From Massilia sp. PAMC28688 (GTDB lineage: Bacteria > Pseudomonadota > Gammaproteobacteria > Burkholderiales > Burkholderiaceae_D), in the NCBI RefSeq assembly GCF_019443445.1, contig NZ_CP080378.1, forward strand, positions 3,782,001-3,846,000: a stretch of DNA of 64,000 nt, read 5' to 3'. The position numbers and the translations under genes were made by a program. Shown here one piece after another: positions 40,778-47,201 of the stretch; the stretch's first letter is position 1; every line of letters starts with the position of its first letter. Under the pieces are notes generated by a model that saw only the letters and a list, made by a program, of their open reading frames with translations, made no database searches and was not told the DNA's origin.

Positions 40778-41338
40778 TCAGTCCCGCCCGGGCCCGTGGC
40801 CGAGATGCCGGCAGAATGCTTCGAGCAGCTGGTAGCCCTGGTCCCACTGTCCAAGGCCGCTGTCGCCGTTGACATGGCCCTGGCGGCCGATGTCGGTAAA
40901 GGCACTGCCCCAGGCATCGGCAAACTGGCGCGCCCGCGCCGCATCGACAAACGGGTCGTCGGCGCTGGCCACGACATGGGTCGGGAAGGGCAGGCGCTCC
41001 ATGGGGATGGGGGTGAAGCCATTCTTGTCGACCGGGTAGGAGGCGGCCGCCACATCGGCCGGCGCCACCAGGAAGGCACCGGCGACCTGCAGCTGCGAGC
41101 CCGAGCTGGCCCAGTGCGCCACGGTGATGCAGCCAAGGCTGTGCGCCACCAGCAGGGGCGGACCCTCGCAGCGGGCGATGGCAGCGTCAAGTTCGGCCAC
41201 CCATTCGGCGCGTTCGGGATTGTTCCAGTCGCGATGCGCCACCCGCACCCATTCGGGGTGGCGCTGTTCCCACAGGCTTTGCCAGTGCTGGGGGCCCGAA
41301 TTCCACAGCCCCGGTACGGTCAATACATTGCACTCCAT
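40778..41338 (-). CDS. RBBP9/YdeN-family alpha/beta hydrolase
   Basis: This 186-residue protein has the RBBP9-like N-terminus VPGLWNSGPQHWQSLWE, the nucleophile S67 in VAHSLGC, an acid in ASADDPFVD and the terminal His in GHVNGDSGLGQW. All three catalytic positions are present. Members are small serine hydrolases with poorly known natural substrates; some bacterial ones release p-nitrophenyl esters in assays. It is a single gene facing htpG. Confidence 0.87.
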   Translation of the reverse strand: MECNVLTVPGLWNSGPQHWQSLWEQRHPEWVRVAHRDWNNPERAEWVAELDAAIARCEGPPLLVAHSLGCITVAHWASSGSQLQVAGAFLVAPADVAAASYPVDKNGFTPIPMERLPFPTHVVASADDPFVDAARARQFADAWGSAFTDIGRQGHVNGDSGLGQWDQGYQLLEAFCRHLGHGPGRD

Positions 41339-41497
41339 CTGTTCTCCTGATTGCTGCCAAGTTGTTGGCCCATTCTACGGCCTCTCGAATATTTGAGCCG
41401 CCGGGGATTAATTTTGAATCCACAAACGTTTTCTATTCGTAAATGGAGACTTGGAGTTGGCGAAACGTCACTTTCTGCGCACTAAAGACTTTGCATT

Positions 41498-41503
41498 TAT
41501 AAT
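41498..41503 (+). promoter_or_regulatory. -10 element upstream of the receiver/YaiO/HEAT/glycosyltransferase operon
   Basis: A perfect TATAAT (41498-41503) lies 43 bases before the regulator start inside a distinctly AT-rich stretch (about 41480-41540). No convincing -35 is at the right distance, so an activator or an extended element may be needed. Confidence 0.5.
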
Positions 41504-41545
41504 CTTTTTCATAAAAATTGTGCTTTTCATTAAGCTTTTGCACCC

Positions 41546-41938
41546 ATGACCGACGCCGCCAGAACGCGTTCCATCCTCATCGTTGAAGACGACGAGAACA
41601 TTGCCGAGCTGCTTAAGTTCCTGATGGAGCGCCAGGGCTACGAGGTGCACCTGCGCACCGATGGCCACACGGCCCGCACGTTCGTGGAAACGGGAACGGC
41701 ATTGCCGTGCCTGGTCCTGCTCGACGTGATGCTGCCGTTTATCGATGGCTTTGAACTGGTCAAGCTGATACGTCGGCGCGAAGGCTGGGGCGCGGTGCCG
41801 ATTGTGATGTTGACTGCCAAGACCATGGAAGCCGACATCGTGCGGGCGCTCGATGCGGGTGCGAATGACTACATCGTCAAGCCCTTTCAACCCAATGAAT
41901 TGATGGCGCGTGTACGGCGCTATCTGAAAGCAGCATGA
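41546..41938 (+). CDS. Single-domain response regulator (receiver only)
   Basis: This 130-residue CheY-like receiver has no output domain. The phosphorylated Asp is D60 (LVLLDVMLPFIDGFELV), the acid pocket is E14-D15-D16 region (ILIVEDDENIAELL), and the switch residues are the Thr of VMLTAKT and the Lys of YIVKPFQPNE. It resembles OmpR-type receivers more than chemotaxis CheY. The stop overlaps the YaiO gene start (ATGATG at 41935), making it the first gene of a tightly coupled operon ending with a glycosyltransferase; it may control that machinery by direct binding. No cognate kinase is adjacent. Confidence 0.9.
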   Translation: MTDAARTRSILIVEDDENIAELLKFLMERQGYEVHLRTDGHTARTFVETGTALPCLVLLDVMLPFIDGFELVKLIRRREGWGAVPIVMLTAKTMEADIVRALDAGANDYIVKPFQPNELMARVRRYLKAA

Positions 41939-42705
41939 TGCGAACTTTTCTTGCGGCAGCCGCCGCCTTGTCATTATCTTTGTCCGCGCTGGCGGGCGAG
42001 CCGGGGCGCGGCACCGGCGGCAGTACCACCGTGGGCGTCGGCCTCTCCGGTGAAACCCTGGGTGACGGTGTATCGGACTGGAGCGAGCGCTCGGTGCGCG
42101 TGCGGCGCGACTTCGAGCGGCGCAAGCTGGTGGAAGCGGGGGTGGCCAGTACGCGCCGCTTTGGCCTGTCGGACCGCCAGGTCAACGGCACCGCCGTGTG
42201 GCCCATGGGTGAACGGTTCACCGGCAGCGTGGACGCGTCCTACAGCGGGACCCATCGTATCCTGCCGCGCCATGCCGTTGGCGCGGCCCTGCAGTATGAA
42301 TTCAGGCCGGCCTGGCTGGTGCGCGGCGGGGCCCGGACCACGCGCTACGCCGAAGCGCGCGTCAACCAGGCATCGCTGGCGCTGGAACACTACTTCAGCG
42401 ACTACGGCATGACCGTGTCCTGGCTGCCGACGCATGTTTTCGGCGTGACCGCGCACAGTTACGCGCTCCAGGGCGCGTGGTACTACGGTGACCGCGACGC
42501 GGTCAGCCTGACCCTGGCGACGGGCCGCGAAGCGAGCACGATCGAGCGCGGCATCGTGGTGCTGGGAAAGGTGGAATCGCTCGGTATAGGCGGGCGCCAC
42601 GTGCTCTCGCCGGCCTGGTCGGCCAACTACGGCATCAGCTACACGCGCCAGGCCGGCCTGTATACCCGCAAAGGATTGAGTATTGGCCTGGCTTACACAT
42701 ACTGA
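41935..42705 (+). CDS. YaiO-family outer-membrane beta-barrel protein
   Basis: This 256-residue protein has a signal peptide (MMRTFLAAAAALSLSLSALAG) followed by alternating beta strands ending in LSIGLAYTY, an outer-membrane C-terminus with terminal aromatic. The strand pattern (WSERSVRVRRDFERRKLVEAGVA, RFTGSVDASYSGTHRILPRHAVG) fits the YaiO beta-barrel family. In E. coli, yaiO sits beside the putative glucosyltransferase gene yaiP; the pairing is repeated here with a glycosyltransferase two genes downstream. It could be a polysaccharide export or assembly pore; that role is inference. Confidence 0.83.
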   Translation: MMRTFLAAAAALSLSLSALAGEPGRGTGGSTTVGVGLSGETLGDGVSDWSERSVRVRRDFERRKLVEAGVASTRRFGLSDRQVNGTAVWPMGERFTGSVDASYSGTHRILPRHAVGAALQYEFRPAWLVRGGARTTRYAEARVNQASLALEHYFSDYGMTVSWLPTHVFGVTAHSYALQGAWYYGDRDAVSLTLATGREASTIERGIVVLGKVESLGIGGRHVLSPAWSANYGISYTRQAGLYTRKGLSIGLAYTY

Positions 42706-43738
42706 TCCCTTCCTGCGCGCTGCGCTGTGGATCGGGCTGGCGGCGACCGGCCTGATCGCGCTGCTGATACTGCAGATTGCCCTCCTGCGCCTGCGCCTGC
42801 TGTCGCGCCGGCGGCGCAGCGCGCAGGTGGTGGCACGCTGGCGGCCCGTGGTCAATGCGGTGCTCTCCGGTGAACGTCCACGCGATCTGCCCGGGCTGGA
42901 GCGCGCCGAGGAGGCCGATTTTTTCAAGCTATGGCTGCACTTCCAGGCCAGCCTGCGCGGCGAGGCGCGCGCTGCGCTCAACTGGCTGGCCACGGACTTG
43001 GGCTGCGAACAGATCGCACTGCGCCTGCTGGCGCGGGGCGATCGCGGCGAGCGCCTGCTGGCAATCCTGGTGCTGGGTCACCTGGGCCGCGCGGGAGCCG
43101 GGCTGCGGCTGCAGGAAACGGCCTTGTCTAGCGACCGGCTGCTGGCGGTCCACGCCTCGCTGGCGCTGGTGCAGATCGATCCTGCGCTGGCAGCGGCATC
43201 GATGGCGCCGGGACTGGTGCACAACCCGGCATGGCCCGTGCGCGAAGTGGTGACGGTGCTGCAGGGAGCGCGCGAACAGTGCGCGTCGGTCATGCATGCG
43301 TTGTTGGCGCGCTGCGACGCCAGCGCTTTGCCGCGCCTGCTGCAGGTAATGGAAGGCTTGCGCGTCGCGGTGCCGGGCAAGGACCTGCAACGGCTGCTGG
43401 CGCATGAGTCGGTGGAAGTGCAGATTGCAGTGCTGCGCATGGTGTCGGAACCCGCCGCGCGCGAGCCGGTGCTGTCGATGCTGGGCCACCAGGACTGGCG
43501 CGTGCGCATGCATGCGGCCAAGGCGCTGGGCCGGGTCGGGAGGCGCGAAGATGTGGCGGCGCTCACGCAGCTGCTGTCTGACCGTGAATGGTGGGTGCGC
43601 TACCGAAGTGCCCAGGTGATTGCGGGCCTGCCGTTTGTGCAGCCGGACGACATGCGCCAATTGGCGCAGGCCGCGACCGACCGCTTTGCCGGCGACATGC
43701 TGCGCCAGGTCATGGCGGAAGGCGCGATGGCCGCATGA
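42683..43738 (+). CDS. Membrane-anchored HEAT-repeat protein
   Basis: This 351-residue protein has one N-terminal membrane helix (residues ~12-36) and a cytoplasmic alpha-helical solenoid with HEAT-like repeats, clearest in ESVEVQIAVLRMVSEPAA, DWRVRMHAAKALGRVGRREDVAALTQLL and EWWVRYRSAQVIAGL. It likely starts at TTG 42683: AAGGA lies seven bases upstream and later starts would remove the membrane helix. The start overlaps the YaiO gene by 23 bases and the stop overlaps the glycosyltransferase start. A scaffold between the regulator, barrel and glycosyltransferase is a reasonable hypothesis; no enzyme motif is seen. Confidence 0.82.
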   Translation: MAWLTHTDPFLRAALWIGLAATGLIALLILQIALLRLRLLSRRRRSAQVVARWRPVVNAVLSGERPRDLPGLERAEEADFFKLWLHFQASLRGEARAALNWLATDLGCEQIALRLLARGDRGERLLAILVLGHLGRAGAGLRLQETALSSDRLLAVHASLALVQIDPALAAASMAPGLVHNPAWPVREVVTVLQGAREQCASVMHALLARCDASALPRLLQVMEGLRVAVPGKDLQRLLAHESVEVQIAVLRMVSEPAAREPVLSMLGHQDWRVRMHAAKALGRVGRREDVAALTQLLSDREWWVRYRSAQVIAGLPFVQPDDMRQLAQAATDRFAGDMLRQVMAEGAMAA

Positions 43739-45144
43739 ATAACAGCCTCATCGTCGATGTCGTTACCTGGTTTGTCTTCGCTTATTTCATTGTTCTGAAT
43801 GGCGGCTACCTGACGCTTAATCTGCTGTCGATCCTGTCGCTGCGCCGCAGTGAGCACAGGCGGGTGCTTGACGAACTGCCGCAGGCCTATTCGGCGCTTG
43901 AAATCCCGATCAGCATCCTGGTACCTGCTTATAACGAGGCCGAGACCATTGCCGCCTCGGTGCGTTCGCTGCTGCAGCTGTCGTATTCGGAATTCGAGAT
44001 CGTGGTCATCAACGATGGCTCCAGGGATGGCACGCTTGACGCACTGAAGGCGGAATTTTCGCTGCAGGCGTTCCCGGAAGCGCTGCGGGTGCAGATTCCG
44101 ACGCAGGCGGTCAAGGCGGTGTACCAGTCGGCCGATTACCCCAATCTGCGCGTGATCGACAAGCACAATGGCGGCAAGGCCGATGCGCTGAACGCCGGTG
44201 TGAATGCGTCGCGCTATCCGCTGTTTTGCGGAGTCGATGCCGATTCTATCCTGCAGCGTGACAGCCTCCAGCGCGTGGTGCGCCCCTTCCTGGACGACAG
44301 TACCATGGTGGCCTCGGGCGGTACCATTCGCATTGCCAATGGCTGCCAGGTGACAGGCGGCTACCTGACCCAGGTGGGCCTGCCGTCCAATCCCTGGGCG
44401 CTGTTCCAGGTCGTGGAGTACCTGCGCGCGTTTCTGTTCGGACGCCTGGGCTGGTCGGCCATTTCGGGGATGCTGATCATCTCCGGCGCCTTTGGCCTGT
44501 TCCGCAAGGACGTGGTGGTCATGCTGGGCGGGTACCGGCCCAATACCATTGGCGAGGATATGGAGCTGGTGGTGCGCATGCATCGCGTGCTGCGCGCGAG
44601 GAAGCAGCCCTACAAGATCGAGTTCGTGGCCGATCCGGTTTGCTGGACCGAGGCGCCGGAAGACCGCCACGTGCTCCGTGCGCAGCGGGTGCGCTGGCAG
44701 CGCGGGCTGTCGGAAAGCCTGACCTCCAACTGGGGGCTCATGTTCAGCCGCAATGGCGGCGTGCCGGGGTGGGTGGCGTTTCCGTTCATGGTGCTGTTCG
44801 AGTGGCTGGGGCCCATCGTGGAACTGGGGGGCTACATCTTCATGGTGTTCGCGGTCTGGTTTGGACTGGTGTCGTGGGATGCGTTTGCGCTCTTTTTGTT
44901 TGTGGCCATCGGGCTGGGGATTTTGCTGTCGGTGTCGGGGTTGCTGCTCGAAGAGATGTCGTTTCATATTTATCCGAGCGGGCGCCATCTGCTGCGCCTT
45001 GGCGTGGCCGTGGTGCTGGAAAACTTTGGCTATCGCCAGCTCAATAGCTGGTGGCGGCTGGTGGGCCTGTACAAATGGGCTGCGCAGACTGAATCAACAT
45101 GGGGCACCATGACGCGCAAGGGAAGCTGGCAGAACAGGCAGTAG
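43735..45144 (+). CDS. Family 2 membrane glycosyltransferase (processive polysaccharide synthase type)
   Basis: This 469-residue inner-membrane GT-A enzyme has one helix at the N-terminus (~8-33) and several at the C-terminus (~345-425). Synthase motifs are complete: ILVPAYNEA, DKHNGGKADALN, the DxD-type D168-A-D170, GED (273-275, catalytic base) and QRVRW (317-321). This arrangement is that of PgaC/HasA/BcsA-like enzymes that make and extrude a linear polymer. There is no PilZ domain, so c-di-GMP would have to act through another protein. The polymer cannot be predicted. ATG 43735 overlaps the HEAT-gene stop. Confidence 0.9.
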   Translation: MNNSLIVDVVTWFVFAYFIVLNGGYLTLNLLSILSLRRSEHRRVLDELPQAYSALEIPISILVPAYNEAETIAASVRSLLQLSYSEFEIVVINDGSRDGTLDALKAEFSLQAFPEALRVQIPTQAVKAVYQSADYPNLRVIDKHNGGKADALNAGVNASRYPLFCGVDADSILQRDSLQRVVRPFLDDSTMVASGGTIRIANGCQVTGGYLTQVGLPSNPWALFQVVEYLRAFLFGRLGWSAISGMLIISGAFGLFRKDVVVMLGGYRPNTIGEDMELVVRMHRVLRARKQPYKIEFVADPVCWTEAPEDRHVLRAQRVRWQRGLSESLTSNWGLMFSRNGGVPGWVAFPFMVLFEWLGPIVELGGYIFMVFAVWFGLVSWDAFALFLFVAIGLGILLSVSGLLLEEMSFHIYPSGRHLLRLGVAVVLENFGYRQLNSWWRLVGLYKWAAQTESTWGTMTRKGSWQNRQ

Positions 45145-45215
45145 TTGCTGGCGGTAGCGGGGTGCGGGCAACTGGCGGGGGACGCCTTGCTGGCCGCGTT
45201 TGGCCGCTAACCACT

Positions 45216-45745
45216 GGCTGCCACTGGCTGCGAACCACTGGCTGGGAACAGCTGCCGCGAACAGCTGACTCGAGCACAGCCCGCTCGGATAATTGGCTCA
45301 ACGAATTGGCTCAACCAATTGGCTCAATAAACGGGCTCGAACAACTGGCTGCGAGACTGGCCGCGAAATTGGCTTGGAAACCGGTTGTCAATACTCGCTG
45401 CGAACACGGGCTGCGAACGCAGGCAGCGAACACTTGCGAATACTCTTTGCGATCACTGGTTGCGATCACTGGTTGGGATCACTTGCGGCGATTACTGGCC
45501 GCGAACACCGGTTGCGGACATTGGTCAGGAACATAGTCCGCGAAAATTGACTTTGAATCTTCTGAGAACATCCGGCTGAATAGCAATGGCCGAAGAAAGC
45601 AATTGAGTGGGAACCAATCGGCTGAAAACAATCGGCTGAAAACAAGTGGCTGAAAACAAGTGGCTGAAAACAAGTGGCTGAAAACAAGTGGCTGATGAGA
45701 TTTGGCCGATAACAATCGGATGCCATCATATGGCTCGCTACAGAT
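45216..45745. repeat. Degenerate 13/14-bp minisatellite, about 40 units
   Basis: From about 45216 to 45535 the sequence is a head-to-tail array of 12-14 base units like GGCTGCGAACACT; unit starts fall at 45295, 45308, 45321, 45334, 45347, 45359, 45371, 45383, 45396, 45409 and 45422, and again from 45458 to 45523 every 13 bases. From 45620 to 45745 the period becomes 14 (starts 45620, 45634, 45648, 45662, 45676, 45690, 45704, 45718, 45732), with four nearly identical GGCTGAAAACAAGT units. It lies between the glycosyltransferase and the RAMA-like gene and does not look coding. The remaining flanks, 45145-45215 and 45746-45962, hold nothing I can support. Confidence 0.9.
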
Positions 45746-45962
45746 GAGCCGTCCTAATCTCCCTGCCGCAATTTGTTCCCGCTTCTGCAAGTTTTTACTG
45801 GCAGCAGCGGTATCGGCAAAATGCTGCAGGTCCTTGGACTCGTTTTTGCTCGTGCGGCGAGATTCCTGCTGAGCCTGTTCGTACAGCGGAACCCTTGCGC
45901 CACCATCCGGTCCAACATGTAGTTCTGGTAGTCCCGCATCCTCATATTCACGGGAGACGAGC

Positions 45963-47201
45963 ATGTTTGAGCCCAAGCTCTTATACATCGAACCAAACAC
46001 CCGCGCTGCGGTGTTGCGCATGCTAAAGGCGCGTCGCGATAACCGCAGTCTGGCAGAAGTGGTCGAGGAAACCCTGCAAGCATGGCTGGAACGGGCCAGC
46101 TGCCAAGACCCGCCCGCCGCCCAGGAAGCGGCGCGCGGCTACCAGTGGAAAAGCCTGTTCCTCCCCAACGGTACGCTGGTGCGCTTCGACTATCGGCGCC
46201 AGACCTACAACGCCGAAGTACGCGGCGACAGGCTGATGTACATGGGCAGGTCCTATTCGCCGCGCGCGCTGCTGCTTCACGTTACCGGCACCGTGCGCAA
46301 TGCCTGGCGCGAGCTCTGGCTGCGCGGTCCTGATGATTTTCGCTGGCATCTGGCGGACACGCGGCGCTATCTCCTGCGTCGCACGCCAACGGGACGCCGA
46401 CCGCGCGGCGTGGACGCTGCGAGCTATTACTTGAAGCACATCTTGGGATCGCGCGGGCGCACACTAGATACTTCAGCATCAGAATGCCATGATGCCAATG
46501 AAAGTGGCCCTGGCGATTTGGGAGCTGCGGCCGTATTCGAGGATGCCGATTTTCCTGAAGATGGCAGCAGCTGCACCAATCCGGATCAACCGGGCAGCAG
46601 TCTCTGCGGCACCGAAAAAAAATCGTGCAGCAGCCCGCTGGACCAACATGAAGACCGCATCGGCCAGGCACACGGCACGGCCGCCCAGAGCCCTGTCCAA
46701 CCTCGGCGCTCCGAAATGACTCCCGCGCCTGGGTCGCCGCTGCGCTCTGGAATGCTGGTCATGGGAGGTCCATGGGAAAACAATTCCCGCGCAGGCAGGC
46801 TGGGTTCATTCCTGTATCGGGACGACATCGTAAGAAAGGACCAGCCGGACCTCACCTGGAACCGGGGCGGCGGTTGGCATGCCCACGCAGGCCGGGCCGG
46901 GCCGCGCGACCGACGCCATTGCAATTACCTCAATGGATTGATGCAATCAAGGACAGCGCCGATCGCCAGTCCCACATCTGGTCCCGGTCCGGAGCCTGGT
47001 CCCGGTCCTGTTCAAGGTGCTGGTCATGACGCGGGACCGGAAGCCAGGCTCGGGCTGGGTCCGAGTTCTAGTCCTGGTGCCTATCCCGATGCTGGTGCTG
47101 GTTCTGGTTCTGGTCCTGGTCCTGGTTCTGGTCCTGGTCCTGGTGCTGGTACTGATTCCGATACCGATTCCGATACCGATACTGGCTGGTGCTGGTCCTG
47201 A
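45963..47201 (+). CDS. RHH-like plus RAMA-like domain protein with low-complexity tail
   Basis: This is a 412-codon frame whose first ~150 residues look like a real protein. Residues 5-44 have a strand-helix-helix pattern (LLYIEPNTRAAVLRMLKAR, SLAEVVEETLQAWLER) suggesting a ribbon-helix-helix-like DNA-binding unit. Residues ~60-130 (PNGTLVRFDYRRQTYNAEV, MYMGRSYSPRALLLHVTG, NAWRELWLRGPDD) follow the RAMA pattern seen in restriction/modification-associated proteins. After about residue 165 the composition changes to Gly/Pro/Ser/Asp filler ending in GP and SD repeats, so the tail may be a read-through extension or a frameshifted remnant. ATG 45963 follows GGGAGA. Function is unknown. Confidence 0.55.
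   Translation: MFEPKLLYIEPNTRAAVLRMLKARRDNRSLAEVVEETLQAWLERASCQDPPAAQEAARGYQWKSLFLPNGTLVRFDYRRQTYNAEVRGDRLMYMGRSYSPRALLLHVTGTVRNAWRELWLRGPDDFRWHLADTRRYLLRRTPTGRRPRGVDAASYYLKHILGSRGRTLDTSASECHDANESGPGDLGAAAVFEDADFPEDGSSCTNPDQPGSSLCGTEKKSCSSPLDQHEDRIGQAHGTAAQSPVQPRRSEMTPAPGSPLRSGMLVMGGPWENNSRAGRLGSFLYRDDIVRKDQPDLTWNRGGGWHAHAGRAGPRDRRHCNYLNGLMQSRTAPIASPTSGPGPEPGPGPVQGAGHDAGPEARLGLGPSSSPGAYPDAGAGSGSGPGPGSGPGPGAGTDSDTDSDTDTGWCWS
47091..47182 (+). repeat. Hexanucleotide microsatellite in the 3' end of the RAMA-like gene
   Basis: Units of the form GGTNCT repeat from about 47091 to 47152 and encode Gly-Pro/Gly-Ser/Gly-Ala pairs; they are followed by a 12-base GATTCCGATACC-type repeat (47154-47182) encoding Asp-Ser-Asp-Thr. 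Both periods are multiples of three, so copy change would alter tail length but not frame. Confidence 0.88.

Follow-up and report, generated by a model that had tools for sequence, protein, structure and literature searches.

In synthase-dependent polysaccharide systems, the place of co-polymerase or scaffold is held by proteins such as PgaD, BcsB, and Alg44, and a QxxRW motif marks the processive synthases. In the pga operon, PgaD and control by cyclic di-GMP (c-di-GMP) are found where the operon described here has a HEAT-repeat protein and a receiver. According to the accessible part of PMC12802240, synthase pathways are frequently regulated by c-di-GMP, and in EpsW a lone receiver that activates exopolysaccharide (EPS) synthesis has recently been described. 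Tetratricopeptide repeats (TPRs) followed by a barrel form the general architecture of PgaA (accessible part of PMC9384988). Here, we describe a four-gene operon of Massilia sp. PAMC28688, located in a 64,000-nt stretch of its genome (NZ_CP080378.1, positions 3,782,001-3,846,000; hereafter, the window), that combines a stand-alone receiver, a YaiO-family barrel, a HEAT-repeat protein, and a family 2 glycosyltransferase (GT2). The genes occupy 41546-45144 of the window and overlap consecutively by 4, 23, and 4 bases:

41546-41938, forward strand: stand-alone receiver (single-domain response regulator), 130 aa, Response_reg 5.5e-29, phospho-acceptor D60
41935-42705, forward strand: outer-membrane beta-barrel of the YaiO family, signal-like helix at the N-terminus, 256 aa, PF19413 2e-18, TIGR04390 2e-34
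42683-43738, forward strand: membrane-anchored HEAT-repeat protein, 351 aa, TTG start, HEAT_2 1.2e-13
43735-45144, forward strand: membrane GT2 synthase carrying processive motifs, 469 aa, ATG start at 43735

A longer in-frame open reading frame (ORF) for the GT2, from 43588, also exists in the ORF list. Coordinates and Pfam/NCBIfam matches agree with the overlaps and the four identities given in an earlier note made from the sequence alone. Because the genes overlap, we infer that they probably form a single transcript; a consensus scan of 41200-45800 found no sigma-70-like promoter before the receiver (one site, at 45265, versus 1.1 expected). The HEAT-GT2 pair is probably a synthase and its partner and, on balance, the sequences point to polysaccharide secretion as the role of the whole set. 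The chances that these genes constitute a modular synthase-dependent polysaccharide secretion operon with two-component input are about even.

A literature search, conducted largely without subscription journals, turned up no paper dealing with this gene set, in line with the earlier statement that no characterised system was known with exactly these four parts; among the matches listed, YaiO was mostly used as a PCR marker. The best-scoring curated family for the window GT2 was PgaC/IcaA (TIGR03937), but membership was rejected, its 125.7 bits lying far below the equivalog cut-off of 422.3 bits. In this, and in the 14 modelled strands of its YaiO barrel, the operon differs from PgaABCD, the system for poly-N-acetylglucosamine (PNAG). 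The earlier note had also stated that E. coli yaiO neighbours a glycosyltransferase gene. This is correct insofar as yaiO is grouped with yaiX, yaiP (a GT2), and yaiS; yaiS-yaiP-yaiX-yaiO and the window operon are alike in placing the gene for a YaiO barrel close to one for a GT2. However, there is little similarity: YaiP shares 25% with the window GT2 over 243 aligned columns, E. coli YaiO gave no meaningful BLASTP match to the window YaiO (best E 0.56), and the 11-kb stretch around the E. coli group has no annotated receiver or HEAT protein, but instead an acyltransferase pseudogene and a putative deacetylase. With no close similarity of YaiO or GT2, a close counterpart of the yai group was ruled out. 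The EpsW-EpsZ pair of Myxococcus xanthus resembles our proposal in that a single-domain receiver controls a polysaccharide pathway after translation, although such control is only predicted here, and EpsW targets a phosphoglycosyl transferase belonging to a Wzx/Wzy pathway (accessible part of PMC12802240), where the window operon has a GT2 synthase and its HEAT partner. Rubrivivax EmbRS was set aside, as the accessible part of PMC3684757 deals with a regulator of the LuxR type and with large polysaccharide clusters and gives no sign of the four-gene cassette.

To place the operon among other genomes, contigs were scanned with a profile from an eight-sequence GT2 alignment, and the best 80 of 160 confirmed matches were kept. 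These came from Oxalobacteraceae, Comamonadaceae, other betaproteobacteria, some gamma- and delta-labelled metagenome-assembled genomes (MAGs), one cyanobacterium, and one MAG labelled Syntrophomonadaceae. Gene order was counted in the 76 loci whose contig continues for over 2.7 kb upstream of the GT2, leaving out L054, L055, L058, and L064, whose contigs end within that distance; genes were typed by hidden Markov models built from those same loci, and scripted ORFs began at the earliest possible start, so that some lengths are overestimated. The exact order receiver-YaiO-HEAT-GT2 was found in 48/76 loci and the receiver in 75/76. One locus (L072) had all four genes with YaiO on the opposite strand between HEAT and GT2, and another (L081, Cyanosarcina) encoded HEAT-GT2 only. 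The script for the junctions chooses start codons close to them with a preference for 4- and 1-nt overlaps, and in counts thus biased towards these, a 4-nt overlap joined receiver and YaiO in 43/48 loci, HEAT and GT2 in 59/75, and receiver and HEAT in 11 of the 26 receiver-HEAT-GT2 loci, while YaiO and HEAT overlapped by 20 or 23 nt in 29/48. As these junctions recur in other loci, the operon arrangement is not due to chance.

Two further surveys, both including the host, were anchored on HEAT. At the family level (195 genomes, HEAT profile, E up to 1e-30), 28 genomes matched and GT2 adjoined HEAT in every one; receiver and YaiO accompanied the pair in 15 and the receiver only in three, while in 10, of which nine belong to a single genus (g250), the 1.5-kb flank contained neither. 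At the phylum level (398 genomes, E up to 1e-15), 10 genomes matched, with an adjoining GT2 in 10/10, YaiO in eight, and a receiver on the same strand in seven and on the opposite strand in one. A first search of relatives with the single HEAT sequence matched 6/60 genomes, including 1 of 16 others of the host genus; two matches were weak (E 3e-5 and 5.6e-5), one of which (L086) was an 826-aa HEAT protein with no GT2 in its flank. Together, the GT2- and HEAT-anchored surveys rule out a strain-specific accident. Plasmid carriage was also rejected, a tblastn search of HEAT against plasmids returning one weak partial match, in Paenibacillus. The system is patchy in distribution and tightly packed where present, with HEAT-GT2 as its constant core and the receiver and YaiO as add-ons. 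The compact four-part set of the earlier note therefore stands as a conserved cassette, but not as a fixed unit, given the loci without YaiO and the genus with HEAT-GT2 and no adjacent receiver.

The window GT2 carries NDGS at 93, GGKAD at 146, DADS at 168, GED (inside IGEDM) at 272, and QRVRW at 317, with hydrophobic segments near 5-36, 238-264, 358-379, and 386-404 (Kyte-Doolittle); it is a membrane GT2 with processive motifs, as in synthase-dependent polysaccharide secretion systems. Across 81 GT2 rows (the window and 80 loci), ND, the K and D of GGKAD, DAD, ED, and QR-RW were invariant, and the first G of GGKAD was kept in 80. That QxxRW and the further motifs typical of processive synthases are invariant argues against a GT2 that decorates an envelope component (lipid, lipopolysaccharide, or peptidoglycan) without an exported chain, YaiO then being an unrelated or optional porin. 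PgaC/IcaA as the best curated family, though far under cut-off, and a linked secreted protein of GH18 (glycoside hydrolase family 18) fold with a carbohydrate-binding module (CBM)-like domain likewise speak against decoration. We consider this alternative unlikely; in its favour are the irregular occurrence of YaiO, addressed below, and a D-Ala-D-Ala carboxypeptidase of the S13 family encoded near HEAT-GT2 in g250 (one scanned).

The window YaiO scored above both curated cut-offs (PF19413, 67.4 versus 23.9 bits; TIGR04390, 119.5 versus 32 bits), and its structural model (pLDDT 91.9), in which 14 long strands were counted and which resembles OmpG, CymA, FadL, and Omp33, predicts a membrane beta-barrel. 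It had no TPR match in Pfam and is a barrel only. N-terminal TPRs preceded the YaiO domain in all six long YaiO proteins scanned (L061, L071, L072, L076, L079, and L080), the general architecture of PgaA (accessible part of PMC9384988). Downstream of GT2, a secreted GH18/PgaB-like protein was encoded in 33/76 loci, a lower bound for some loci, where flanks reached at most 6 kb on each side; members include L003:5415-7070, L022:7400-9196, L061:5631-7358, and others. Five members scanned had no Pfam match, and the family, modelled as a CBM29-like sandwich plus a TIM barrel of GH18/PgaB-like type, may be a glycoside hydrolase family that has not been described. The TPR-bearing YaiO proteins of the six distant members and this hydrolase-like neighbour lend partial support to the synthesis-export system suggested earlier.

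Directly 3' of the window GT2, where relatives have the hydrolase-like or a kinase gene, lies a degenerate 12-14-base tandem-repeat field (45209-45695; for example GGCTGAAAACAAGT, 5.4 copies at 45620-45695). A second short tandem-repeat field, with a CTGGTC unit, occupies 47092-47180, near the 3' part of a hypothetical ORF (45963-47201).

The window receiver is a single-domain response regulator, comprising a receiver domain only with an acidic pocket (D15, D16), phospho-Asp (D60), Thr/Ser (T90), and Lys (K112). In an alignment of 76 receivers (the window and 75 loci), Asp was found at position 60 in 74, at 15 in 74, and at 16 in 72, and all 76 had Thr/Ser at 90 and Lys at 112. A histidine kinase of either of two families was linked in 43/76 loci, six in the same operon, with CHASE kinases of this operonic type at L062 and L068, a count of linked kinases that includes kinases several kb away and is, for some loci, a lower bound owing to the same flank limit. 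The HEAT protein has one hydrophobic segment (17-35, Kyte-Doolittle) with RRRR shortly after it, and its repeats are presumably cytoplasmic. Whether the receiver controls synthesis is evenly balanced on this evidence, and a relay through HEAT is doubtful; the receiver may bind a variable HEAT face, or the GT2 itself. In the MAG labelled Syntrophomonadaceae (L075:3697-8232), a protein with a C-terminal receiver precedes HEAT-GT2 and a receiver-Hpt protein follows, a possible phosphorelay variant.

A different regulator was found in g250. Neither receiver nor YaiO was found in loci L167-L170, about 14 kb each, and no YaiO was found in 9/9 genomes of the genus, in a search with no positive control there but whose profile found two known positives elsewhere. 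The convergent neighbour of HEAT-GT2, of about 956 aa, was a CHASE-PAS-GGDEF-EAL enzyme in the 3/3 scanned of the four loci:

L167:2311-5184: CHASE-PAS-GGDEF-EAL enzyme, convergent with the receiver-less HEAT-GT2
L168:2931-5798: the same enzyme, likewise convergent
L170:8947-11820: the same enzyme, likewise convergent

This suggests that a receiver or a c-di-GMP enzyme can serve the same HEAT-GT2 core. It also favours a scheme in which c-di-GMP governs the core, HEAT or GT2 binding the nucleotide and the receiver being a second input, as does the frequency of such control in synthase systems (accessible part of PMC12802240). Yet no PilZ or GGDEF domain was detected in the four window proteins (Pfam, E up to 0.01), and we regard this scheme as improbable.

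Tentatively, we propose a widespread system whose HEAT-GT2 complex is gated directly by a lone receiver in its phosphorylated form, with a CHASE or Cache kinase feeding the receiver. Around this fixed core, the modules for regulation (a receiver or a c-di-GMP enzyme) and for export (YaiO) would be interchangeable. The core would consist of the GT2 synthase and its constant inner-membrane HEAT partner, acting as co-polymerase or scaffold; in most lineages seen, the receiver, fed by a histidine kinase, would switch it after translation. The putative polymer would pass the outer membrane through the YaiO barrel, with TPRs in distant members, and be trimmed by the GH18-fold protein where present.

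Several observations weigh against this proposal. Receiver-HEAT-GT2 occurred without an in-line YaiO in 26/76 loci, and 28/76 lacked the in-line YaiO that would be the TPR-bearing export protein. No YaiO match was found elsewhere in 11/14 genomes with a YaiO-less locus (positive controls 2/2), the other three having a distant match. Since YaiO is missing from those 26 loci and 11 whole genomes, it is not an obligate exporter, and a 14-strand barrel alone is no evidence for polymer passage. Mapped onto the GT2 tree, the lack of an in-line YaiO, scored for 28 rows (L072, L075, and L081 among them), required six changes, of which well-supported branches force at least four, gains and losses being undistinguished; both this turnover and the 11 YaiO-less genomes fit a GT2 that decorates the envelope. 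The host genome itself (5.46 Mb, one contig) had no further YaiO match besides the window gene (E up to 1e-3), no match to the hydrolase-like family (in a search without positive control and with other host hydrolases outside it), and short HAMP-region matches only to the kinase sensor. The host kinase, if any, is encoded elsewhere, and the window copy may be regulated differently from those of relatives.

Other such points concern the receiver. In 75 receiver-bearing rows, conservation of 85% or more was seen at 64 HEAT positions; at 62 of these, at least half of the 11 rows without a receiver have the conserved residue. As these positions persist where no receiver is adjacent, the conserved face looks unlike a receiver dock and most likely serves the GT2. 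A receiver-specific face was sought in the same 75 and 11 rows, but strong differences were confined to R44 and L316, and a single genus supplies nine of the 11 receiver-less rows, so that no interface is claimed. Kinases of the first family are also found in the absence of the cassette: their sensor profile matched 67/195 family genomes, versus 28/195 for HEAT. This occurrence and the persistence of the conserved HEAT positions are consistent with a receiver that is a phosphate sink or relay for a neighbouring kinase, co-transcribed for dosage only, while HEAT-GT2 makes the polymer. The retention of a receiver in nearly all loci and its recurrent 4-nt overlap with YaiO speak against this rival, which we consider unlikely. 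Two receivers (L061:1615-2025 and L071:3078-3476) have Glu at the phospho-site and an altered acidic pocket, at odds with phosphorylation-dependent gating, yet the fact that they are retained is easier to reconcile with a role in binding than with one as a sink. Finally, the regulator exchange was seen in a single genus, g250, and could have happened just once.

Known synthase-dependent systems are mainly gated by c-di-GMP; if our proposal is true, receiver, kinases, and HEAT would constitute a second way of switching them, with a logic close to that of EpsW but with the synthase as target. Natural variants lacking YaiO or an adjacent receiver, with an operonic kinase, or with Glu at the phospho-site already exist. 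The proposal would also give a function to YaiO barrels and to a family of secreted proteins without a Pfam match in the five members scanned.

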